In this document: in pieces, positions 1 to 11,029 of the stretch | Layout of the letters: every line of letters starts with the position of its first letter | Position numbering within the stretch: position 1 is the stretch's first letter | Assembly: GCF_014192375.1 (NCBI RefSeq) | Contig: NZ_JACHXV010000002.1 | Span: 1 to 64,000 of the forward strand | From: Endobacter medicaginis | GTDB taxonomy: Bacteria > Pseudomonadota > Alphaproteobacteria > Acetobacterales > Acetobacteraceae | DNA: 64,000 nt | Reading direction: 5' to 3' | Made by a program: the position numbers and the translations under genes | The notes under the pieces: generated by a model | Seen by the model: only the letters and a program-made list of their open reading frames with translations | The model's database searches: none | What the model was told of the DNA's origin: nothing

Positions 1-141
1 AATACGGTCAGCCGAGAGATACCGTTCAACCAGCACCTCGTGGCAGCCATCCGACCCAGCAACCGCGCATGCGACAGATAACTAATACTGGGGCTACGCA
101 TTTCCAGATGACACCTAACGTCCCCTACCTGCTGAACCGGT

Positions 142-226
142 GTTTGTCAGCGCCGCGAGCCGTAGACAAACCGTCTATCCGCAGACATCAGCGCTCATCC
201 GCGCCCGTTGACAAAACAAATTTGTC
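142..226. repeat. Inverted TTTGTC / GACAAA repeats
   Basis: TTTGTC occurs at 143-148 and 221-226, and GACAAA at 165-170 and 210-215, forming two inverted pairs. GTTTGTC (142-148) faces GACAAAC (165-171), and GACAAA (210-215) faces TTTGTC (221-226). They could be iteron-like or operator sites for the downstream initiator. No function is shown by the sequence alone. Confidence 0.4.
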
Positions 227-271
227 TACAGAAGAAAAAAGTCGACTCGGTTTTCGGAGAGATATGTCATT

Positions 272-322
272 GTAGAGAGTCATCCATCACAGCGATTGCC
301 GTCGCTCCGGATGACTCTCTAC
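272..322. repeat. Perfect 14-bp inverted repeat in the rep leader
   Basis: GTAGAGAGTCATCC at 272-285 is repeated as its exact reverse complement at 309-322, separated by 23 bases. The arms would form a strong RNA stem-loop 84 bases before the rep start codon, or serve as a protein-binding dyad. ColE2-type plasmids control Rep through an antisense RNA over the leader, so a similar control element is possible here. Confidence 0.6.
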
Positions 323-341
323 GGGGACTTGATTAGTATGC

Positions 342-353
342 GTCGATTGCACG
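342..353 (+). repeat. Shared 12-mer GTCGATTGCRYG, copy 1
   Basis: GTCGATTGCACG lies 52 bases before the rep start codon. Near-identical copies occur at 3438-3449 and 5232-5243. All three are intergenic and in the same orientation, so a shared regulator site of this element is likely. Confidence 0.45.
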
Positions 354-405
354 CAAACGTCAATGAATCCGTCGGGAAAACGCATGTTTCTCGGGGACGA
401 CGACG

Positions 406-2142
406 ATGCCATTCGACTCTCAAAACTACCTCCGCGGACTGCGGCATATCTCGCCGAACGTTGCGTCGTCGGCCGTCTCGGTTCTCCACACCATCGACCT
501 CAATCAGAACATCGGCCGGCATCACCTGACTCTGGCCGGCGACATCTCACAGCCGCTGCAGAGAGCCATCGTCGTCGCGCAGGCCGCCGCACCGCATCTC
601 GCACCACTCGCCGCCTATATGATTCCTCACCTGCCGGGCAGGCCGCGTGCCGGCGCTGAGATGTCGTCGGCGCAGCAGATGTACCTGGGCGACGCAATCC
701 TGCAGCCGCTGTTCACGCCGAACTCGCCGGAATGGTGCAACGCCCTGGTCATCGATTGCGACGCCCAGGCGGCCGTGGAAGCCCTTCAGCAGCTTCCCCC
801 GTACGTGAGACCGACCCTGGTCATCGACGCCGCCAGCGGCCGTTGCAGCGCGATTGTTCAGCTGGAGACACCGGTCCGCATGACCGAGAACAAACCCGGC
901 GGACGGAAAGACCCGCGCGGCACGCTCTGGTATGCCGGCGCCCTGATGGCTGCCGCTCTAGATGGTGTCCTGCTGCCGCATGTGGCGCTGGTCCGCTCTC
1001 CATGGGCACTGTTGAAAAACCTGCCCGGGCACGAGACAGCGCAGGGATTCTCCGACCCGCAGACCGAGCCTGTGGCGCTGGCGTATCGGACCATCCCCGG
1101 CACACCTGACATGTTGTTGACTGAAATCGTCCACCAGTTACATCCGACCTACGGCCATCTCGTTCGCCGCTCACAGCAGCCCGGCAAACGCCGTCCCGGT
1201 CCCCAGGAGCCGGCTGCCGAGGGCACCAACCGCGGCCTGTTCGACCGCCTGCGGGCATGGGCATTCGAGCGGCACGAGACGGACGCGGACGCCATCGCGG
1301 CGCAGGCCGAGGCCATCAATGATGCGTTCGCCTGGCCGCTGAGCGATGATGAGGTCGCCTCGGTTTCGTCGAATGTCACGATTTTCATGCAAACCAAATT
1401 CGTCCCGGGCGAGACTGCACGCAATGTGAACCGTGGTGTGATGCAGCTCGCCGGCGACACGGAACACACGGTCAAAGAGAAACAGGCTGCCGGCGCTGAC
1501 TATGCGGCGTACACCAAGCGCCTGAGAACGGAGCGGAAAATCGCCGACATCGTGTATGACTGGAATCCCGCCAACCGCATCACACAAACTGCGCTGGCGG
1601 AGGCGATGCAGATGTCGACGAAGACCATGAAGCGGGCATGGGGAGCGCCCCTGGAGACCCTGACGGACGAGGTTCCGGACGGCCGGCCGGACGAACCTCA
1701 CTATTTCCGTGGCCGCCGGTGCTCTGCATGGTCTCGAATGGCCAGCACACCGCTGCGGAATGTCGTTGCGGCTCACAACGCCTGGGCTGACGAGATTGCC
1801 GCTTGCGATGCCATGGCTGCCCGGTGCCACCTGGTCGCCTCCCTGGCAGAGCTTAAGGCGATGAAAGCCAGTCTGCCGAAAGTCGAATACAAGGAAAAAG
1901 AGGTCCAAGAGGTTCTGCCGGACGCCGTACGAAAAGCCCGCATGGCTGTACACTCGGCATTCCTGAAGCGGCGCCGGGAGCTGGTGTCGGCCGACCCGGC
2001 GGCTCGCGAGCACGACCGCGCTGCGGATGCCGAGGTGGAGGATTGGGAACCTCCGAGCGCCGCACAGGATGACGAGGAGCGCCGACTGTTCAGCCACCGG
2101 AACTCTATTCGGATGTCGGCTATGCTCAGCTCCGGGCTCTAA
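406..2142 (+). CDS. ColE2-like plasmid replication initiation protein (Rep)
   Basis: A 578-residue protein that resembles the replicase/primase initiators of ColE2-type plasmids. These bind the origin and prime DNA synthesis. Around residues 112-158 it has the pattern LVIDCD...P...IDAASGRCSAIVQLETPV, matching the acidic and GHaH-like segment of the replicase domain, although the usual GHAH is altered to GRCS. Residues about 273-325 (GTNRGLFDRLRAWAFERH...) match the PriCT-1 primase C-terminal domain. Residues about 388-411 look like a helix-turn-helix (ALAEAMQMSTKTMKRAW). The charged C-terminus is unassigned. The ribosome binding site is weak (CGGGGACGACGACG before ATG). The family call is from motif resemblance. 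Whether it still replicates anything is unknown. Confidence 0.7.
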   Translation: MPFDSQNYLRGLRHISPNVASSAVSVLHTIDLNQNIGRHHLTLAGDISQPLQRAIVVAQAAAPHLAPLAAYMIPHLPGRPRAGAEMSSAQQMYLGDAILQPLFTPNSPEWCNALVIDCDAQAAVEALQQLPPYVRPTLVIDAASGRCSAIVQLETPVRMTENKPGGRKDPRGTLWYAGALMAAALDGVLLPHVALVRSPWALLKNLPGHETAQGFSDPQTEPVALAYRTIPGTPDMLLTEIVHQLHPTYGHLVRRSQQPGKRRPGPQEPAAEGTNRGLFDRLRAWAFERHETDADAIAAQAEAINDAFAWPLSDDEVASVSSNVTIFMQTKFVPGETARNVNRGVMQLAGDTEHTVKEKQAAGADYAAYTKRLRTERKIADIVYDWNPANRITQTALAEAMQMSTKTMKRAWGAPLETLTDEVPDGRPDEPHYFRGRRCSAWSRMASTPLRNVVAAHNAWADEIAACDAMAARCHLVASLAELKAMKASLPKVEYKEKEVQEVLPDAVRKARMAVHSAFLKRRRELVSADPAAREHDRAADAEVEDWEPPSAAQDDEERRLFSHRNSIRMSAMLSSGL

Positions 2143-2341
2143 CCGTCAACAAATTGGTCACTGAATTGGAAGTTTGTAGACATATTACCGATTTGCATTT
2201 TCTGAATACCACATCGCGCCGGGATAACACACACATCGCACCGGCATCATCCCGCCAGCATCCGCCCTACTGGCTATCTCGTGCTCCACTCCAGTCGCCC
2301 CGCAAGTTCATGACTCCAAAGAAACACATCTGCGCGCGCCA

Positions 2342-2376
2342 GGAATCAGATTCCGTGATTCCGACAATCTGATTCC
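2342..2376. repeat. 11-bp inverted repeat with GATTCC iterations
   Basis: GGAATCAGATT (2342-2352) and AATCTGATTCC (2366-2376) are exact reverse complements around a 13-base spacer. The word GATTCC occurs at 2350, 2357 and 2371, with another at about 2438. The repeat lies 200 bases after rep inside a 398-base stretch (2143-2540) with no credible gene. It may be a terminator for rep, but it lacks a T-run, or a site for Rep or a resolution system. Confidence 0.45.
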
Positions 2377-2489
2377 AAACTCCTGCAACCGTCGTACGAA
2401 CGCACGAGGTAACGGGGTTAGCAAACCGGTTTACGATTCCCGCTACCGAGATTCACCTGCCGCCGCTGCACACATCACGCAAACAAACA

Positions 2490-2513
2490 GGGCCGAGGAT
2501 TCCTCCCCGGCCC
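2490..2513 (-). terminator. Terminator of the minus-strand orphan operon
   Basis: GGGCCG and CGGCCC arms with an inner GGA/TCC extension form a hairpin 28 bases past the stop of the 2541-3359 gene. On the minus strand it is followed by TGTTTGTTTG, which fits intrinsic termination. Confidence 0.6.
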
Positions 2514-2540
2514 ATCACGTCATCTTACCGATTTCCGCTA

Positions 2541-3359
2541 TCAGTCTGCGTACTGCAGCTGCACAGCACCCTGGACCGGCGGCACATGGACCTCGCCGGC
2601 ACGATATCTCCGCATCCACGTCTGGCACCGCTCGATATTTCGTATCGAAACCGCTCCGCGCTTCAGTCCCGCGAGCGAGGACTTATGCCCGAGAGCGGCT
2701 CTGGAAACCGTCGTGGGAGGGATGCCGGTGTCAGTGCGGAACCGATTCAGCTCGTTCCGGAATCGGGTGACCGGGTGGAGCGCAGCGCCGGCAGAATCAC
2801 AGATGGCTTCGAACTCCAGCCAAGTCAGCTCGTGACCGGCCGCGCCGTACAGCTCGGCGGCAACATCTTCGATTACGTCGCCATTGTCCCTAAGAACCGA
2901 CCAAGCCGACGCATACAGCTGCTCGTACAGCCCGAGAACGGTCGCACGCGGCACATGATGGCGCCCGTTCTCCAGAACCTCGTCCGCGAACCTGCGCGCC
3001 GCCGGCATCGAGACTCTGGCGATGTTGGAAATCAGATACGCTGCCGCAGCCACGTCATCGAGATTCCGCATCTCATCCAGCGCCGCTTCCACAGCATCCA
3101 TGTCGTCGGCATCCTGGCGCCGTGCCATCAGTTCACCGATAACCCCGGCCAGTGCGACCTCGGTCAGCGGCAGCACGAGCTTCATGATTCGGGATGGCTG
3201 GCCGACAACCGGCATCTGCGAGCGGACGCTGGTGTCGGTTGACACGACAGGCACCGAAAAGCCGTGATGGCGGGCGACGAATGCCGCCGCGGCTGCACGG
3301 GCGCAGCGAGCCACAAGGTCGCGGTCGGGGGTTGGGAAGTCGAAATCGTGGTGTGTCAT
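2541..3359 (-). CDS. Hypothetical protein with C-terminal helix-turn-helix-like segment
   Basis: A 272-residue protein without a recognised family over its first 190 residues, which look helical and alanine-rich. Residues about 205-255 read FRNELNRFRTDTGIPPTTVSR, then a loop, then RNIERCQTWM. The layout resembles the small alphaproteobacterial regulators in which a G-x-x-x-T-x-x-x-x-A-L helix pair precedes a tryptophan or basic wing. A DNA-binding role is inference. It is the last of four co-directional orphan genes, 123 bases after the HExxH gene, and ends at a good terminator. It could be the element's own regulator or an accessory replication or partition factor. Confidence 0.6.
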   Translation of the reverse strand: MTHHDFDFPTPDRDLVARCARAAAAAFVARHHGFSVPVVSTDTSVRSQMPVVGQPSRIMKLVLPLTEVALAGVIGELMARRQDADDMDAVEAALDEMRNLDDVAAAAYLISNIARVSMPAARRFADEVLENGRHHVPRATVLGLYEQLYASAWSVLRDNGDVIEDVAAELYGAAGHELTWLEFEAICDSAGAALHPVTRFRNELNRFRTDTGIPPTTVSRAALGHKSSLAGLKRGAVSIRNIERCQTWMRRYRAGEVHVPPVQGAVQLQYAD

Positions 3360-3437
3360 CGGCTTGCTCCTCGTTTCTGATGACGGGTTTCGTACGCATA
3401 TTGTAGCAGAAAACGTGCAAACGACGCCGTAATAGTT

Positions 3438-3449
3438 GTCGATTGCGTG
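3438..3449 (+). repeat. Shared 12-mer GTCGATTGCRYG, copy 2
   Basis: GTCGATTGCGTG lies between the minus-strand genes ending at 3483 and starting at 3359. It sits beside AT-rich sequence with TTGTAG/CTACAA words on both sides (near 3402 and 3457), which looks like a promoter region for the 3359 gene. Confidence 0.45.
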
Positions 3450-3482
3450 TTATTTTCTACAATGTTGGCTTTGTTGTCTGGG

Positions 3483-4298
3483 TCAGTATCCAACGGACCA
3501 CAGGTCGTCCTCGTCTTCCTCGCGGCCGACGGACATCCAGTGCGCGACGACCTCGTCACCAGAGCCGACTATCATGTTTCCGAAATTCCCCGTGTAGACC
3601 ATCTCGAAAGCGCCCTGAGGCGTGTGCTCGCGCAGAGGTTTCTCGTAGTACATGCCCATGTCGCGGGTGACGGCATATGCGGCATAAGCTCGCGCCCGAC
3701 GCTCGATATCAGTGTCGTAGTAATCCTCATCGCCGATAGCGACGCCCTGGCGCAGTGCGGCATCGATATCGCGCACAATGCGGGGGTTCATGAGCCTCTC
3801 GGCGACATGCCAGATTTCGTGATGGCAAGTCTGCGAAACTGAGGAGACACCGCCGGCACATATTGCCATGGCGATGATTGGCGGATTTCCGGGTGATTGG
3901 CCGACTGCAAGTCCGCGCAAATCGAAGAATTTTGAGCCATGGAGATGAGGAACGGTCAGGCACCGAGACCATGGAACGCACCGTCGGACGGCATCATGGC
4001 ACAGCTGTGTTTTGCGCTCGATATATGTACGATATCGGATTTTGTCGCTGTCCGCGCTTGCCCGGTAACCGGGTCCGCACCGCTTCTGCAGCAAATGGTC
4101 CGCATGCTTGATATCGAGATATCTCAGCCTGGAGCCGCCGGCGTGAGTGATGCGGCAGCAATCCTCCGGCTGCCAGTGCATCCAATCTGATTCCGGGCCA
4201 TCGTCGCGCGGTGCATGCAGTGTCTGTGATTGATATGTCCGTGATGCGGCGCCAGGCGCTGTCCACGGAATCGGCTGTCGTCTGAACCAGTCTCTCAT
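3483..4298 (-). CDS. Putative zinc metallopeptidase (HExxH), element-borne
   Basis: A 271-residue protein of unknown family. The stretch CHHEIWHVAERLM places an HExxH motif at residues 160-164, and ERRARAYAAYA follows with Glu199 as a possible third zinc ligand, about 35 residues downstream. This spacing is seen in small ImmA/IrrE-like and anti-restriction-type peptidases of mobile elements. No transmembrane segment or signal peptide is obvious. I chose the ATG at 4298 because AGGAGG ends eight bases before it. An ATG two codons upstream has too short a spacing, and a longer frame up to 4421 has no ribosome binding site. It sits in a four-gene orphan run. Peptidase activity is inference from the motif. 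Confidence 0.6.
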   Translation of the reverse strand: MRDWFRRQPIPWTAPGAASRTYQSQTLHAPRDDGPESDWMHWQPEDCCRITHAGGSRLRYLDIKHADHLLQKRCGPGYRASADSDKIRYRTYIERKTQLCHDAVRRCVPWSRCLTVPHLHGSKFFDLRGLAVGQSPGNPPIIAMAICAGGVSSVSQTCHHEIWHVAERLMNPRIVRDIDAALRQGVAIGDEDYYDTDIERRARAYAAYAVTRDMGMYYEKPLREHTPQGAFEMVYTGNFGNMIVGSGDEVVAHWMSVGREEDEDDLWSVGY

Positions 4299-4365
4299 TA
4301 TCATTTCCTCCTGTTGCCCCGGGTGGGGTGCTGATTGCTGTGTTCTCCGTTGATGCCGTGTGGCT

Positions 4366-4746
4366 CTACGCCGCCTGTGCGACCCGCATCGGCCTGAATC
4401 CAAAGCGATTCGCCGGACCATTCAGATTCGCCGGCGCGATGTCATGCACGCTGTACGAGTTCGGCGTGCTGCTCAGATGGTCGAGGCGCGCAATCTCATC
4501 GAACTGTGCACGTGCCTCGTCGATTCCAGCGCGTGCGGACCTGTCGTCGATGCGGCCTGCGTAGCGCTGTTCGACGAGGATTTCGAGCACTCGGCTGGAG
4601 TTTGATTTCGTGTAGCGCGGCTCGCTGGACCGCAGAACTCTCAGTGTGAACCCGGTCATCAGAGTGCGGCTATCGACGTCCTTGGTCGACACCAGCAGCA
4701 GCCAGTCGCCACCACACAGTCGGGTTTTCGAGATGATTTCGGGCAT
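4366..4746 (-). CDS. Hypothetical small protein
   Basis: A 126-residue protein with no family I recognise. It begins MPEIISKTRLCGGDWLLLVS and looks like a compact alpha/beta fold. The middle is charged (SSRVLEILVEQRYAGRIDDRSARAGIDEARAQF) and the C-terminus is proline/alanine-rich. The evidence that it is real is a canonical AGGAGG eight bases before the ATG and its place in a run of co-directional genes, 81 bases after one neighbour and 67 before the next. Confidence 0.6.
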   Translation of the reverse strand: MPEIISKTRLCGGDWLLLVSTKDVDSRTLMTGFTLRVLRSSEPRYTKSNSSRVLEILVEQRYAGRIDDRSARAGIDEARAQFDEIARLDHLSSTPNSYSVHDIAPANLNGPANRFGFRPMRVAQAA

Positions 4747-4827
4747 TTCCTGCCTCCTGTTTGATTGTTGGCCGGTCTTGCCGGCGTGGTGGTGATGCCG
4801 GCAGGATGTTCCCCGCCGGCATCGGGT

Positions 4828-5121
4828 TCAGTTCAGATGATGGGCGAGGCCGCCCTCGTCGGAATTTTCATTGTAAAAGACAACGTCGTTTCCGAAAATC
4901 CGCAGATACACAGAGCCATCTCCGGAATCGAGAATGGATGACAGCGCCATCCATTCCTGGCGGTCGAGGACGAGCTCTTGGCCGACCAGGCCGTGTCCGT
5001 CCGGCAGATTCTCCAGCTTCTTGGCGGCTGAGGACAGTGCATCGGAGATGTCGCGGTCGAAGAATCCGAGCAGCTGAAGGTCCAGCGGCGCCGGTCGAAA
5101 AGTGTTGTCCGTGGTGTTCAT
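4828..5121 (-). CDS. Hypothetical small acidic protein
   Basis: A 97-residue protein starting MNTTDNTFRPAPLDLQLLGFF. It is acidic, with alternating hydrophobic residues near the end (GSVYLRIFGNDVVFYNENSDEGG) that suggest a beta sheet. No family is recognised. The start at 5121 follows AGGGGA at a fair distance. An in-frame ATG at 5166 is possible but its extension is proline/glycine-rich and has no ribosome binding site. It is the first gene of the four-gene minus-strand run. Confidence 0.55.
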   Translation of the reverse strand: MNTTDNTFRPAPLDLQLLGFFDRDISDALSSAAKKLENLPDGHGLVGQELVLDRQEWMALSSILDSGDGSVYLRIFGNDVVFYNENSDEGGLAHHLN

Positions 5122-5177
5122 GGTCGTTCCCCTGTTAGCCGGTCCCGCCGGCGGTTGCGAAAGCATCGTGCCTTCTT

Positions 5178-5214
5178 GATTTCAATATACTCGATTTCAA
5201 GCAAAACAGTTCAA
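5178..5214 (-). promoter_or_regulatory. Promoter and direct repeats of the orphan operon
   Basis: On the minus strand TTGAAC (5214-5209) and TATATT (5189-5184) could be -35 and -10 boxes, with a long 19-base spacer. The 8-mer GATTTCAA occurs at 5178-5185 and 5193-5200, so one copy overlaps the -10 box and the other lies in the spacer, as a repressor site would. The local AT richness contrasts with the flanks. Confidence 0.4.
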
Positions 5215-5231
5215 AGAAAGTACTACCTTTT

Positions 5232-5243
5232 GTCGATTGCATG
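5232..5243 (+). repeat. Shared 12-mer GTCGATTGCRYG, copy 3
   Basis: GTCGATTGCATG lies in the divergent region between the orphan operon (start 5121) and the duplicated wing-helix gene (start 5388). Confidence 0.45.
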
Positions 5244-5291
5244 AAATGTTGACGCTCACATGCATGTATCTGCTGGATTCCGGCTTTCATA

Positions 5292-5307
5292 TTAACATCG
5301 ATGTTAA
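5292..5307. promoter_or_regulatory. 16-bp perfect palindrome, likely operator
   Basis: TTAACATCGATGTTAA is a perfect palindrome 81 bases before the ATG of the duplicated wing-helix protein. A second, overlapping palindrome ATGTTAACAT lies at 5301-5310. The AT-rich dyad directly upstream of a probable DNA-binding protein suggests autoregulation. Confidence 0.6.
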
Positions 5308-5387
5308 CATGACGACCTTTCGGTCGAGCGTTCGCATTGCAAATACCGGCACCTGCGGACTATGATGTGCCCACAGGACGCGCCACC

Positions 5388-6323
5388 ATGATTGACAAAA
5401 CCGCCATCAAAGCCATCCAGCATTACATCACCATCTCCGGCGACGCGGCCTACACACTACAAGAATTGCGCGATATCGCCGGCGCCGACGCCAAGCCGGC
5501 CATCGACACGCTGATTCGCCGCCAGGTCCTGGGTCGCCTCGGCCAGGGTCTCTATGTGCCGATGAAGGAGGGCGTGTTCCGACCCGGGCCCGTGCCGGCG
5601 TTTCCATTCGAGCAATCCTGCGCTTGCGTGCTGCAAAAACTCAGAATCGAGTTCCGCCCCGGCCGCGCAGTTCGCGATTACAATGCCGGCAGGACGACCC
5701 AGGTGCCGGCCCGGGTGATTTTCGAAGTCCGGGGCAACCGCATGCCGCAGATGGGATACGGCAAGCAGGTGCTGCTGTACGATAACAAGACCTACCCGAA
5801 ATCTGAGTTGGCCCGTTTCGCTGCCATCGACCCGTGGCCGTGTGATGGCGAGCTGTCTGCCGACCAGGCCATCCAGCGGCTGCGCGACTACATGAGAGCG
5901 GTGCCCGACAGTATCTATCTGCGGCAGGATTTCGAGCACCTGGCCCTGCAGCAGACCGCCACAGCCATCAGGACCATCATCTCCAAGAACTTGGTCGCCG
6001 AGCTGGGCACAGGAATCTATGGCAGGCTGGAATCCTCTGGCGGCGGGTATCAGCTCGCTGCCGGCGGTCTGTATCGAGCTGTCTGTCGCGCACTGGACCG
6101 CATGGATATCGAGTGGCGGCCGAGGATGGCGTGGCGGCGATACCAGTCCGGCGCCGGTCCGAAGCCGTCGGTTCCCAGTTTCGAGGTCCGCGGTCGGCGG
6201 AGGCCTCGGCTGCAGTATGCCGGGGTGCCTGTGGCCTACGATAACGAGCAGATGTCGCCGGCGGAGCTACGGACGGTCGGACGGGATGACCCGTGGCCGG
6301 AAATGGGATGGCCGCCGAGATGA
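5388..6323 (+). CDS. Tandemly duplicated winged-helix (AbiEi/DUF6088-like) protein
   Basis: A 311-residue protein made of two homologous halves. Each half begins with a wing-helix-like unit ending in G-x-G-(L/I)-Y (residues near 53 and 207), followed by C-x-x-L-x-x-(L/M)-x-IE-(F/W)-RP, a Y-x-(A/S)-G segment, FEVRG and DPWP. FEVRG occurs at 112-116 and 265-269 and DPWP at 148-151 and 301-304, so both motifs repeat at exactly 153 residues. The wing-helix part resembles AbiEi-type antitoxins and DUF6088 proteins, which are often autorepressors. No toxin partner is adjacent. The ATG at 5388 was preferred to an upstream in-frame TTG (5337) because only the former has AGGA at a reasonable distance. 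A 16-bp palindrome lies 81 bases upstream. Confidence 0.65.
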   Translation: MIDKTAIKAIQHYITISGDAAYTLQELRDIAGADAKPAIDTLIRRQVLGRLGQGLYVPMKEGVFRPGPVPAFPFEQSCACVLQKLRIEFRPGRAVRDYNAGRTTQVPARVIFEVRGNRMPQMGYGKQVLLYDNKTYPKSELARFAAIDPWPCDGELSADQAIQRLRDYMRAVPDSIYLRQDFEHLALQQTATAIRTIISKNLVAELGTGIYGRLESSGGGYQLAAGGLYRAVCRALDRMDIEWRPRMAWRRYQSGAGPKPSVPSFEVRGRRRPRLQYAGVPVAYDNEQMSPAELRTVGRDDPWPEMGWPPR

Positions 6324-6534
6324 GGTGCCTCAGAAATCGATTCTGGATGGGGCTGGGTGGCTTTTAGGTCGTCTGGGACCTGTCGAGGATATCGGCGCTG
6401 TACGTGGCTGTATGGCGATTTGCTGGAACGTGGACGGAAACACGGTATCAGGACACCGCGCTCAGCATCGATTTCGGGCTCGGTAATGGCATCCTGAGGA
6501 CCGACATGTCAGCTAATTCTTACATCACGCGCCT

Positions 6535-7416
6535 TCAGATACCGGAATTCGGCACCTGCGCACGCCATGAACCGGTGTCGGGGTCCAGGGTCAGCTCGAC
6601 GGCGAGGTGCGGGTTGAAATCGGGGTTCTCCAGCGTTCTGCCACGCATCTCGTAGCCCGCCGGATTTCCCAGCAGCAGGCAGCCGCCGGGGTCCCGAACT
6701 TGGTGCGAGACATGGGTGTGTCCGGACACCCACATCGCCGGCTGCAGGGCGATGACGTCATCGAGATTCGACGCGAATCCAGCGGTAACGGGGTCTCGCA
6801 AATACTGGCGGGCGACGCAGCGGAGCGATGGCTGATGGTGTGTCAGCACCACGGTCGGGCCGGCGTGCGGTGTCCTCAGCTGTGATTCGATGAACTGCCG
6901 GCTGTGAGCGTGTCGACGTGCCGTTTCTCCGGGCGTCAACCGGTCGCGCCAATCAACTCGGTCGGCTCTCCTGATGAGTCGGAAATCGTTCAACGACCGC
7001 TCGACGATGCCGGCATCGACGCGTGGATTGCCGAAAATCGCAAAATCAGTCCACAGCGTCGCGCCGACGACGCGCACATCGGTGCCGCGGACGGGGACCA
7101 CGATGGCCTCGTCCTCCAGCACATGAATCCGGGATTCCGGCGTCGACAGCTCGTCGGCCTGGCGCCGCATCTGCGCGATGCCATCGTCGATGGATTTCTT
7201 CGTCGAGTAATGCTCGTGATTGCCGCCGATGACCACGATGTCGGGGCTCGCGAACAGCCGGCGGGCCTGTGCGACGGCCATACCGGCTTTGTCCGTGTCG
7301 CCGGCGAGCAGCACGATGTCGGCCCATGATTGATTGTCCTCGAATCCGCGATGTGAGGGGCTGAATTCCAGGTGCAGGTCGCTGGTTACCTGGACGATGA
7401 TGGGTTTCGGGAGCAT
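6535..7416 (-). CDS. Calcineurin-like metallophosphoesterase
   Basis: A 293-residue metal-dependent phosphoesterase. The full set of metal-binding motifs is present: D-x-H (Asp13, His15 in SDLHLE), GD (Asp40), GGNHEHY (Asn66, His67), THH in the second half, and GHTH near the end (SGHTHVSHQ). The substrate cannot be told; relatives act on cyclic nucleotides, nucleotides, phosphoproteins or nucleic acids. There is no signal peptide, so it is cytoplasmic. It stands alone, with a 211-base gene-free gap (6324-6534) on one side and the divergent orphan at 7503 on the other. Mobile elements often carry such enzymes, but a defence or repair role is not shown. Confidence 0.85.
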   Translation of the reverse strand: MLPKPIIVQVTSDLHLEFSPSHRGFEDNQSWADIVLLAGDTDKAGMAVAQARRLFASPDIVVIGGNHEHYSTKKSIDDGIAQMRRQADELSTPESRIHVLEDEAIVVPVRGTDVRVVGATLWTDFAIFGNPRVDAGIVERSLNDFRLIRRADRVDWRDRLTPGETARRHAHSRQFIESQLRTPHAGPTVVLTHHQPSLRCVARQYLRDPVTAGFASNLDDVIALQPAMWVSGHTHVSHQVRDPGGCLLLGNPAGYEMRGRTLENPDFNPHLAVELTLDPDTGSWRAQVPNSGI

Positions 7417-7502
7417 GCCGACTCGATATCAATTTCGGGACTCGCCCGCTAGAGTCGACTGATTCAAAAAACTGGCAGCGCTATCAGGCTGGGGATTGAC
7501 TG

Positions 7503-8009
7503 ATGTCAGACGTCACAAGCTGGCTCGCACTGGCGATTAGCGGCACTGCGCTCGGCTTGGGAGAATGGCGGGCTAGGAACCAAAGAAAGTCTCAGGCAGA
7601 AAAAGATACAGCGAAGCTTAGTCTGACCATTCAAGAGAGACTATTGTACGATGCAATACCAGAAGTCGAAATGGTGATAGTAAATTCAGGCTGGAGTGAG
7701 ATTACGCTCGACAGCATTGAATACGTGGTAAACGGTACATCGATACGAGACTCAAAAGACTCATATTCCATAACAGGGAAACGCCTGATTCGCGGACAGA
7801 AGTGCTCATTCAATATCGATTGGCAAGAAATATATCACAAGACAAAGCCGGAATCTGCCGAAATTGATATAACAGTACGTAGCACAATCGGTGACGTCTT
7901 CATATACAAAGGACTGAAGATAGATTTTCGCAGGGCAATTACTAAGATTCGTGAAATGCGGGCAGCCGATAAATCCGGATTGGTGTTCCTCGACCAATAT
8001 GACTACTGA
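7503..8009 (+). CDS. Hypothetical N-terminally anchored protein, AT-rich
   Basis: A 168-residue orphan. Residues about 5-20 (SWLALAISGTALGLGEW) form a short membrane anchor, followed by a charged stretch (RARNQRKSQAEKDTAK). The rest looks like a beta-sandwich, with alternating strands and the segment VEMVIVNSGWSEITLDSIEYVV, typical of small proteins that present an immunoglobulin-like fold on the cytoplasmic side of the membrane. The gene is clearly richer in A and T, with more Lys and Ile codons, than any other gene here, which points to recent acquisition. Function is unknown. It converges with and overlaps the next gene by 7 bases. Confidence 0.6.
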   Translation: MSDVTSWLALAISGTALGLGEWRARNQRKSQAEKDTAKLSLTIQERLLYDAIPEVEMVIVNSGWSEITLDSIEYVVNGTSIRDSKDSYSITGKRLIRGQKCSFNIDWQEIYHKTKPESAEIDITVRSTIGDVFIYKGLKIDFRRAITKIREMRAADKSGLVFLDQYDY

Positions 8010-8383
8010 ATCATAATTTCCGCCGCCAGATACGCCGCCACCCTCTCAAGTCCGCCCGGCTCGCACATCACATTCAGCGCCGACCGACCGGCGAACGCTT
8101 CATTCGGCTTGCGCACCCAAGCGTAGCCGCGCTCTGGGTCCGTGAATGCCATCCGCAGCGACCGGTGAATCGACAGCAGCAGCCCCAGGGACCTGGCATC
8201 GACAGGCCGCAGCTCGACCCGGCCAGCCCGCCATTCCGCCAGCTGTGCCGCATCGATGCCGAGCACCGCGCACTGCTGTGAATCCGACAGCTGCCAGCGC
8301 TCCATCAGCGCCAGCACGGCCTTCACCGCGGCCGCGGATTCGGCGTCGGTCGGCGTGTCGGAGCTGGCGGCGGGGGTGGACAT
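8003..8383 (-). CDS. Xre/MbcA/ParS-type antitoxin, solitary
   Basis: A 126-residue protein with the layout of MbcA/ParS/Xre antitoxins. An N-terminal helix-turn-helix (WQLSDSQQCAVLGIDAAQLAEW, residues about 30-51) is followed by the C-terminal toxin-binding domain with NEAFAGRSALNVMCEPGGLERVAAYL. The family normally neutralises a RES-domain NAD-degrading toxin encoded directly downstream. Here the downstream neighbour is the convergent orphan at 7503-8009, which is not a RES protein. So it is either a solitary regulator, a remnant, or paired with an unrelated toxin. An inverted repeat at 8468-8499 in its upstream region is a likely autoregulatory operator. Confidence 0.75.
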   Translation of the reverse strand: MSTPAASSDTPTDAESAAAVKAVLALMERWQLSDSQQCAVLGIDAAQLAEWRAGRVELRPVDARSLGLLLSIHRSLRMAFTDPERGYAWVRKPNEAFAGRSALNVMCEPGGLERVAAYLAAEIMIQ

Positions 8384-8467
8384 GGCGGCATGGTAGCAGG
8401 CGCGGCCGTGAGAACAGAAGTGGAATCTATGACGGGCCGACGGTCGCTAGATGCTTGTGATTGCTGA

Positions 8468-8499
8468 GTTATACCAAAAATCGGCGATTTGGGTATAAC
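8468..8499. promoter_or_regulatory. Operator-like inverted repeat
   Basis: GTTATACC (8468-8475) faces GGTATAAC (8492-8499), with the arms continuing inward as AAATC/GATTT around GGC. It lies between the antitoxin start (8383, minus) and a small plus-strand gene (8562), so it could control either. The TATAAC in the right arm could double as a -10 box. Confidence 0.5.
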
Positions 8500-8561
8500 T
8501 GTGAACGGGCGCTATCGTGTGTTATCAAACGGTCAGATTGGTACCATGTTCAGAGGTCGTG

Positions 8562-8717
8562 ATGGCTGAGGATGAGAAGGGCGGCGAGGGTATCGTGCCG
8601 GCTGAGCCTCCGGTGGTGGCTGATGATGGGGCGGCGACTGATGAGTTGCTGAAAACTGAGGTGGAGCGGGTGTTGCTGGAGAATGAGGCGGCGTTTCGGG
8701 AGCTAGTGAACCGCTGA
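8562..8717 (+). CDS. Possible small acidic protein
   Basis: A 51-residue frame starting MAEDEKGGEGIVPAEPPVVAD. The first half is acidic and disordered and the last 20 residues form an amphipathic helix (LLKTEVERVLLENEAAFREL). The ribosome binding site is poor and no family is recognised. Position next to an operator-like dyad and opposite the antitoxin gene is the only contextual support. It may be a small partner protein or not a gene. Confidence 0.35.
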   Translation: MAEDEKGGEGIVPAEPPVVADDGAATDELLKTEVERVLLENEAAFRELVNR

Positions 8718-9317
8718 CTAGCTCCAGGCCGAGAAAACTTATATCCGGACGGGATTGACACTCGCCTGCTCTGGCGGCGGCATCACGGAGCGCTGTGAAC
8801 CACACTTTGCCGCCTGTGCCGCCGGTCGATGTCGGGGCGCTCTTGAAACGAGTGCGGGATGGAAAAGCGTGATGATGGCTGAGCGCGAACACTGCGACGG
8901 TCATCGAGCGCATGCGCTGCAAAGCTGCGGTCAACGAAGGGCGGCTGCATGAGGCACGGCGGCTGTAGGTAGGCGGCGATTGGTTGGACCTGGAGCCCCG
9001 GGACGAAGGCGAGTAGTCAAGGTGTGATGCTCGTAGGCAGGTTGCCATCACGCGCCCACATCCGCACTGCACGGCGGCCACACCGCTTCCATCCTATATT
9101 TTTATAAGGCACCTAGCGCCTCGACAAGGTTGTCGGCTCAGCTGCGGTCTCCGAAAGCCCGGCCACTCGCTCGGATGCGAGCGCCATTTCGGTCGTCGAA
9201 GGTAGGGCATAAATCCCATCGCAATGGTATCATTGCCAACCATCCCTTGCTTTCGGTTCCATTCTAGTGGTATCTGAATTAGGTTCACGACACGTTACGA
9301 CCCATCAGGATGGAATA
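8718..9317. other. 600-base stretch without an intact gene
   Basis: No credible complete gene is seen. One plus-strand frame between 8876 and 9016 reads WLSANTATVIERMRCKAAV and then NEGRLHEARRL, a TAG at 8966, and WLDLEPRDEGE before the next stop. It has the composition of a small helical protein broken by a stop codon, so it may be a gene remnant. The rest shows nothing I can name. Confidence 0.35.
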
Positions 9318-10640
9318 ATGTCTGCTGAGCTCAATCTGCAGATTCACTTCGACGGCACATGGCATGATGCTGCAACGCTGCGGATTAACAACGCCAAGGC
9401 TGGCCATCGCAGCTCCGCCGACCTAGATTACAATATCGGATACTGGATGGCTCACGGAACCGTCTCAGGTGCCCCGCCCATTGATGACCGGGCTTTGTCC
9501 GTAGCATTCCCTATTACCATGGAGGCAAAGCAAGCGACCAATTGGCCGGCGTTCCTGCTTGACCTGCTTCCTCAGGGCGACGCGCGCACTCGAATCGCGA
9601 CTCAGCTGAGAATCGATGAGAATTCGCCAGAAGTTGAATTGCCCTTGCTAAGGCTTGCTGGCGGCTCTCCCATCGGCAACATTCGGGTTCAGCAAGCTTG
9701 GGAAGACGCGCAAAAGCTACATAAAGGCGTGGAAATCGTCGGTCTGTCGATGGATGACATAGCTCGTCGCGAAGAGCCGTTTTACGACATTGCACGCCGC
9801 TACGCGCTGCTGGCTGCTGGTTCGAGCGGCGTTCAGGGCGTGTGGCCCAAGTTGCTGCTCACGACTCGCGCTGATGGCATGCTGGCACCAGATTCCGTGG
9901 TGCCAGACGCCGAGGCAGCTGCGCACTTCATCGTCAAGACAGTGGCGCGCAAGAGCGAGAGGCATGATGCCCTCATCTTGCGTAGCGAACCCGGTTACAT
10001 CGAGACCGCGAGGGCGTTCGGTCTGCGCTGCGGGCAACCGCTGTTTTGCATAGGCGATTCACTGATGATTCCTCGCTTCGACCGCGAAATCATCAACGGC
10101 AGCGTTGTTCGTTATGGCCAGGAAAGTATCGTAGCGGCGGCTGGGATTGCTGAGTTCGCCTATTATACGAGCCATGAAGCTTATCTTGATGTCATAAAAC
10201 GAGTAACGACCAAACCAGAGGTCGAGGTCATCGAATACCTGAAGCGCGACATCATAGCGACTGCCATGGGTGACCCCGATAATCACGGCCGCAACACTGC
10301 CCTGACCAAACGACGCGATTATGTCGGACTGACACCGTTATTCGATTTTGCACCCATGCGCCTTAAGTATGATGTCTATCGCTCCACTCGGTGGGCGTGC
10401 GACGAAAAGCCTGTGCCATCGCCGTCTGGCATCCGTGCCATCTGCGCGGCCGTTGCTCGGGATACGAAGCTATACCCCGAGCAGGTGCTGCTCGCCCTGC
10501 AGGAATTGCTGCCGAATTTGCGCCGCATCCGCGAGCTTGCACAAAGTTGCGGTGTCCCGACTGATGAGTTGTCAAGCGTCACTGCGCGTGACCCGTTTGT
10601 GAACGCCGAAGTGCTGGTCAAATCCATCGAGGAGACATGA
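9318..10640 (+). CDS. hipA: HipA-family serine/threonine kinase toxin
   Basis: A 440-residue HipA-like protein kinase. HipA toxins phosphorylate a target (glutamyl-tRNA synthetase in E. coli) and halt growth until neutralised by HipB. Visible motifs: the N-terminal FLLDLLPQGDAR segment, the GSSGVQGVWPK glycine/serine loop that carries the autophosphorylation site in the family, HFIVK with the ATP-binding lysine, the catalytic GDPDNHGRN (Asp321, Asn326), and the metal-binding FDF (Asp343) in LTPLFDFAPM. All are intact, so the kinase should be active. The start at 9318 was chosen because it follows CAGGATGGAATA. The frame extends 17 codons further without a binding site. The toxin precedes its antitoxin, the reverse of E. 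coli hipBA. Confidence 0.85.
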   Translation: MSAELNLQIHFDGTWHDAATLRINNAKAGHRSSADLDYNIGYWMAHGTVSGAPPIDDRALSVAFPITMEAKQATNWPAFLLDLLPQGDARTRIATQLRIDENSPEVELPLLRLAGGSPIGNIRVQQAWEDAQKLHKGVEIVGLSMDDIARREEPFYDIARRYALLAAGSSGVQGVWPKLLLTTRADGMLAPDSVVPDAEAAAHFIVKTVARKSERHDALILRSEPGYIETARAFGLRCGQPLFCIGDSLMIPRFDREIINGSVVRYGQESIVAAAGIAEFAYYTSHEAYLDVIKRVTTKPEVEVIEYLKRDIIATAMGDPDNHGRNTALTKRRDYVGLTPLFDFAPMRLKYDVYRSTRWACDEKPVPSPSGIRAICAAVARDTKLYPEQVLLALQELLPNLRRIRELAQSCGVPTDELSSVTARDPFVNAEVLVKSIEET

Positions 10641-10641
10641 T

Positions 10642-10953
10642 ATGGTTGCAAGAAAGCTTGATTCCGAAGCCAATACACTGCGCGATGAGTTTTTCAGCAT
10701 GGCGAGGAACGGTGAGCTTGGCGTTGCCGATGGTGTTCGCCGGATGCGCGACATGCTGTCGATGACGCAACCCGAATTCGGCGAGCGGTTCGGGCTGACG
10801 AAGCGTCAGGTAAGCGAGCTGGAGAACGGACACGCTAACCCGAAAGCGGAAACCCTCGCGCGTCTCGGCAAGCCATTCGGTCTCAGTGTTGGATTCGTAC
10901 GCGACGCCGGTCTTCAGGCGACGAAAGCTGTTCGCCGAAAAAAGGACGCGTAG
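10642..10953 (+). CDS. hipB: HipB-like Xre-family antitoxin
   Basis: A 103-residue helix-turn-helix protein, one base after the hipA stop. Residues about 33-80 (MRDMLSMTQPEFGERFGLTKRQVSELENG, then NPKAETLARL) are a typical Xre/Cro domain. HipB-type proteins bind HipA and repress the operon. The end is basic (KAVRRKKDA). With the order toxin first, antitoxin supply depends on the same messenger, or on a promoter inside hipA. I see no strong promoter there. This is the last gene of the accessory block. Confidence 0.8.
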   Translation: MVARKLDSEANTLRDEFFSMARNGELGVADGVRRMRDMLSMTQPEFGERFGLTKRQVSELENGHANPKAETLARLGKPFGLSVGFVRDAGLQATKAVRRKKDA

Positions 10954-11029
10954 CTTCAGTGCCTCCGTCCGCCGAGGGATTGTATCTATGCCGCAACGCC
11001 TGCTACAAAAGCCGGATACAAACCGCCTG

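Follow-up and report, generated by a model that had tools for sequence, protein, structure and literature searches.

The 311-aa protein encoded at 5388-6323 on the plus strand of the window (the whole 64,000-nt stretch of Endobacter medicaginis DNA analyzed here) is an internally duplicated protein of the AbiEi/DUF6088 type. Of the explanations considered, the best is that it acts as a toxin-free, single-chain, AbiEi-derived autoregulator of a plasmid-like element carrying a rep gene, a reading that on balance we regard as probably correct. By analogy with characterized AbiEi proteins, we propose that it may have been kept for regulation after loss of the toxin, as an AbiEi pair in one chain.

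The ORF starts with an ATG at 5388, its stop codon ends at 6323, and it divides into half 1 (residues 1-153; 5388-5846, plus strand) and half 2 (residues 154-311; 5847-6323, plus strand). The two halves share 30% identity over 148 residues (BLASTP, E = 1e-18), and their Smith-Waterman score of 165 compares with 29.5 ± 4.9 for shuffled sequences and a maximum of 62 in 2,000 shuffles (z = 27.5). The motifs FEVRG (residues 112 and 265) and DPWP (residues 148 and 301) recur at a spacing of exactly 153 residues. Both halves end in a YDN...DPWP tail that is absent from single-unit DUF6088 proteins, and this shared tail favors an origin in which a unit that had already gained its extension was duplicated internally, rather than one in which two different units fused. 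The tail is a better argument for this origin than the phylogenetic tree, in which the four halves of the protein and its sister copy formed one clade (support 96/92) with a program warning of long branches meeting.

We then compared the protein with known families. The PADLOC AbiEi model PDLC02229 matched the whole protein in two stretches (E = 2.3e-29) and each half separately (E = 3.9e-20 for half 1 and 9.2e-9 for half 2). Aligned by hhalign with ten single DUF6088 proteins, taken from plasmids and from genomes of Acetobacteraceae, half 1 reached a probability of 98.8% (E = 1e-16) and half 2 one of 98.3% (E = 1.4e-14). All ten of these singles matched Pfam DUF6088 and six matched AbiEi_4; the 311-aa protein itself had no direct match to Pfam (including PF19570) or NCBIfam models. 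When the PDB was searched by sequence with the 311-aa protein, no match was accepted, and hits to ribosomal protein S9 at E about 0.01 were taken as chance.

AlphaFold2 was used to model half 2 alone from an alignment with 41 singles. In the model (mean pLDDT 84), a small mixed domain comes after a winged helix whose element order, H1-S1-H2-H3-S2-S3, agrees with that of the AbiEi winged helix (PMC3985639). Among 350,542 PDB chains searched with Foldseek, the best match to half 2 was Streptococcus agalactiae AbiEi (6y8q; probability 0.96, E = 0.011), with Mycobacterium tuberculosis Rv2827c (1zel) at rank 6 (145 columns aligned, TMq 0.58); these E-values are modest, and the weight rests on the top match being an AbiEi. 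In the full-length model, half 1 was predicted with pLDDT values mostly of 89-98 (residues 1-130), with a winged helix at about residues 1-61 followed by a small C-terminal domain, and the top Foldseek matches were again AbiEi, with Rv2827c third. Half 2 was of low confidence in this model, apparently because the singles align to half 1, and the relative placement of the halves was therefore not read from it. Taken together, the profile, hhalign and structural comparisons support reading each half as an AbiEi/DUF6088-like unit that contains a winged helix. The initial annotation had proposed this family, the 153-residue repeat and a DNA-binding fold in each half; the motif positions bear out the spacing, self-alignment establishes that the halves are homologous rather than unrelated, and a winged helix was indeed modeled.

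The two halves are not equivalent. The YNxGRxTQ motif is nearly invariant in 41 non-redundant singles, with Y98, G101, T104 and Q105 (half-1 numbering) present in 41/41 and N99 in 40/41. Half 1 keeps this motif as YNAGRTTQVP (residues 98-107; 5679-5708, plus strand), whereas its counterpart in half 2, YQSGAGPKPSVP (residues 252-263; 6141-6176, plus strand), has lost the TQ core. In its C-terminal domain, half 1 lacks two arginines conserved in 40/41 singles; R117, found in 40 of the 41, is replaced by N in half 1 and retained as R270 in half 2. A recognition-helix arginine present in 39/41 singles is lost in both halves (P37 and T192), and both recognition helices carry little net charge.

We next examined the genomic setting. 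The host genome (3.63 Mb, 61 contigs) contains a sister copy on contig C9 that is 84% identical to the duplicated protein and is also preceded by the upstream site described below. Each contig begins within one of two paralogous, collinear elements about 9 kb long; in the window the shared extent is 1-8970, truncated on the left where the contig starts and approximate on the right. The elements encode, in order, a Rep-like protein (406-2142, plus strand; weak Pfam Replicase match), a divergent run of four minus-strand ORFs without Pfam family (2541-5121, comprising 2541-3359, 3483-4421, 4366-4746 and 4828-5121) that may form a co-regulated operon, the duplicated gene, a convergent metallophosphoesterase (6535-7416) and an Xre-MbcA-type antitoxin gene. 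Ten further family genomes in the sample and a Pararoseomonas plasmid of 11.8 kb carry relatives of the Rep-like protein, and none of the fetched flanks of other Acetobacteraceae Rep homologues encoded the other element proteins. Since chromosomal genes such as mannitol dehydrogenase and shikimate dehydrogenase adjoin them, the elements appear to be integrated.

Genes for antitoxin and toxin in the AbiEi/DUF6088 family are co-directional and close or overlapping. Neither the window element nor the C9 element encodes an AbiEii-like ORF, and the only AbiEii match in the genome (C41:3658-4512; 5.4e-39) directly follows its own AbiEi, which belongs to a different subgroup from the duplicated protein. 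In the surrounding C41 (L019) region, 2955-6363, this canonical AbiEi-AbiEii pair precedes what look by eye like an AAA ATPase gene and a fragment of a helicase gene; the region may be the end of a defense island. Genome and viral collections supplied 90 related ORFs (including the best 80 of 110 genome loci), none of which contained two units; 65 had an AbiEii within 600 bp downstream, 20 did not and 5 were cut off, the AbiEii profile having been built from four seeds and possibly missing some. Searches of 398 genomes from the family, 397 from the order and 385 from the class, in sets that overlap, yielded single units only and no duplicated copy. First-pass pattern scans of the genome and viral collections with the tandem protein returned no relatives, nor were any found in phage records. 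A duplicated DUF6088/AbiEi member was likewise absent from titles and abstracts of open-licence literature (DUF6088; AbiEi with tandem or orphan). The fused-pair architecture is thus new among the literature searched, its building block being already known.

The initial annotation had reported no adjacent toxin and had named a stand-alone regulator or an antitoxin in trans; given that no AbiEii is adjacent, these were the right alternatives. According to the second, the C-terminal domains would neutralize AbiEii/MenT-type nucleotidyltransferases of competing elements or of the C41 AbiE system, with DNA binding serving only autoregulation. The C-terminal domain of AbiEi is by itself enough for antitoxicity (PMC3985639), the genome does contain a canonical AbiEi-AbiEii pair, and half 1 preserves the motif whose T and Q are invariant in singles that mostly pair with AbiEii. 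It is because of this retained motif that we keep an antitoxin in trans as the chief competing reading, but we consider it unlikely: half 2 has lost the TQ core, half 1 is without the two C-terminal-domain arginines, the C41 AbiEii is already served by an adjacent AbiEi of another subgroup, and relatives linked to AbiEii share no more than about 20-40% identity with either half.

We analyzed the 266-bp intergenic region upstream of the duplicated gene for candidate operators. The perfect 16-bp palindrome of the initial annotation, TTAACATCGATGTTAA, lies at 5292-5307, with 80 nt between it and the ATG. Over 26 bp (TCATATTAACATCGATGTTAACATGA, 5287-5312; candidate site II) it matches at 24 positions, a score reached in 0 of 3,000 dinucleotide shuffles of the region. 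The perfect 16-bp length was rejected as evidence, six such palindromes occurring in the window; AT-richness and place set this one apart. The sequence ACATNNATGT occurs at only two sites in the window, 5258 and 5295, which are 37 bp apart; the first defines candidate site I (ACATGCATGT, 5258-5267), which has the half-site ACAT/ATGT in common with site II. The initial annotation included neither site I nor the sister copy. Throughout the 3.63-Mb genome, ACATNNATGT pairs with 10-40 bp between them were found only upstream of both duplicated genes, and the same was true of the 16-mer with up to two mismatches. Shuffling of the region produced some repeated 4-2-4 half-site in 26 of 5,000 trials and this half-site, which was picked after being seen, in 0 of 5,000. 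The sole sigma-70-like promoter found in a promoter scan, TTGCAA-18-TATGAT (5337-5366, plus strand), is weak (9/12, with 0.6 expected by chance) and begins 25 bp downstream of the palindrome.

Alignment of the two copies revealed a 265-bp block (5275-5539) of 100% identity that spans the promoter, site II and the first 50 codons; its edges are sharp and its surroundings about 82% identical, which suggests a probable recent gene conversion. Because site II lies inside this block and both copies derive from one ancestral element, its recurrence is not independent evidence, and the palindrome at the sister copy was rejected as such. Only site I adds evidence of conservation, since it lies outside the identical block and is conserved on its own, the intervening bases having diverged between the copies. 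No shared operator emerged upstream of single DUF6088 genes; the inverted repeats there were mostly at shuffle level and without a common motif, and the candidate sites are therefore not transferable from relatives. The initial proposal of one fused dimer bound to one palindrome proved too simple, given two ACATNNATGT sites, non-equivalent halves and loss of the recognition-helix arginine from both.

These observations can be accommodated by the single-chain autoregulator that we favor. A unit of about 150 residues, made of a winged helix and a small C-terminal domain, would have been duplicated in tandem to give a single-chain pseudo-dimer whose two winged helices could engage the ACAT/ATGT half-sites at 5258-5267 and 5287-5312. 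Since AbiEi monomers bind two repeats two at a time and cooperatively, the fused chain would mimic an AbiEi pair, and covalent fusion would make cooperativity independent of protein concentration. With the candidate sites placed between its own gene and the divergent four-gene run, such binding may repress or modulate transcription on one side or on both. We infer that the protein binds these sites, regulates its own expression and controls the divergent run. Against the autoregulator stand the lost arginine and little net charge of both recognition helices, the descent of both elements from one ancestor with site II in the conversion-like block, the lack of a shared operator among single DUF6088 genes, and the position of the palindrome upstream of the only predicted promoter, whereas AbiEi repeats cover the -35, the -10 and +1.

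The divergent genes also raise the possibility of a new two-component module in which the protein is the antitoxin or repressor and the toxin, one other than AbiEii, is encoded for example by 4828-5121 and the rest of that run. These genes are kept with the duplicated gene in both elements, have no Pfam family and share with it the intergenic region holding the operator candidates, but no toxin fold or motif was recognized in them, antitoxin and toxin genes of this family do not diverge, and the downstream metallophosphoesterase is convergent. We therefore regard a module of this kind as quite improbable. A role in replication or copy-number control, with the protein acting on rep or replicon DNA instead of its own operon, is suggested by the Rep-like gene in both copies of the element; the ACATNNATGT sites, however, are nowhere near rep, and other Acetobacteraceae Rep homologues lack such a protein in their fetched flanks, making this role very unlikely. 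Between the two genomic copies, codons 52-153 have a dN/dS of 0.13 and half 2 one of 0.26, values similar to those of the neighboring rep (0.18) and phosphoesterase (0.16), and half 2 is therefore maintained by purifying selection. A decaying duplicated antitoxin without current function is the least probable reading of all, for although the toxin and the half-2 motif residues are lost and the neighboring XRE gene has decayed in the window copy, both copies are full-length and open, with dN/dS values comparable to those of their neighbors.

Next, we compared the protein with characterized and annotated relatives. DUF6088 proteins (PF19570), such as WP_011153638 from Synechocystis pSYSM, WP_320533892 from Robbsia and WP_034928088 from Komagataeibacter, are encoded upstream of AbiEii and resemble each half in size (about 137-155 aa), in combining a winged helix with a short C-terminal domain and in sequence (~20-32% identity per half). 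These proteins are single units, and in most cases an AbiEii gene comes right after theirs; the window protein instead combines two units, lacks a toxin, ends each half in a DPWP tail and has a degenerate half-2 motif. S. agalactiae AbiEi, the closest solved structure to the half 2 model, likewise has an N-terminal winged helix and acts through promoter inverted repeats, but it is monomeric (about 195 aa), has a larger C-terminal domain, is bicistronic with AbiEii and uses 23-3-23 bp repeats across the promoter (PMC7319586, PMC3985639). Two AbiEi monomers bind the two 23-bp repeats cooperatively, bend the DNA and repress the operon (PMC7319586). The fold of Rv2827c/MenA4 matches both modeled halves, although this protein is a monomer with an extended C-terminal domain and a toxin partner, Rv2826c. 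AbiEi and Rv2827c both autoregulate through inverted repeats (PMC3985639, PMC7319586), and because Rv2827c has four promoter repeats, multi-site operators do occur in the AbiEi family. In a gammaproteobacterial MAG (JASHPX010000196, locus L055), two DUF6088 units that share 44% identity are neighbors on the same strand; they differ from the window protein in being two separate genes followed by an AbiEii ORF. An adjacent pair of this type is a plausible forerunner of the fusion.

AbiEi is both a repressor and an antitoxin, and which of its surfaces serve which role is still partly unsettled. A naturally fused, toxin-free pair pulls the two roles apart: features that it retains would point to DNA binding and dimer-like cooperativity, and features that it has lost to antitoxin function. 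It also offers a test case for antitoxins turning into stand-alone regulators of mobile elements. It is possible, and we suggest this tentatively, that a type IV antitoxin unit left its toxin-antitoxin context and that duplication and asymmetric motif loss turned it into a single-chain pseudo-dimer with a two-site operator of its own, serving as a core regulator in a hitherto undescribed family of integrated elements that carry rep.

Several further features of the elements were recorded. The product of 3483-4421 (minus strand) contains a zincin-like HEIWH motif, is kept in the C9 copy and has no Pfam match; it showed no similarity to the zincin-like neighbor of an orphan DUF6088 gene on a Defluviicoccus plasmid. 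The Xre-MbcA/ParS-type antitoxin gene is present in both elements (8003-8383 in the window and L003:7501-8100 in C9), and no RES-type partner was seen among the listed ORFs. An XRE helix-turn-helix gene, intact in the C9 copy (L003:8144-8458), is decayed in the window copy (about 8755-8952). Just past the end of the common element, window positions 9267-10953 encode a HipA-like protein and then a HipB-like XRE protein, the toxin gene preceding the antitoxin gene. Adjoining the C9 element, L003:9135-9926 encodes an HEPN_Swt1/Abi_2-like protein, a possible defense gene with both matches below the Pfam cut-off. No Rfam family was found over window positions 1-11000, which include, roughly 85 bp upstream of the rep-like gene, a hairpin whose perfect stem is 14 bp long (272-322 in the window and L003:273-325 in C9). 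The two hairpins have MFE values of -36 and -37.5 (z = -7.4 and -5.7), and their stems covary between the elements, GTAGAGAGTCATCC/GGATGACTCTCTAC in one and GTAGAGAGTTCCGG/CCGGAACTCTCTAC in the other, around a conserved inner hairpin.
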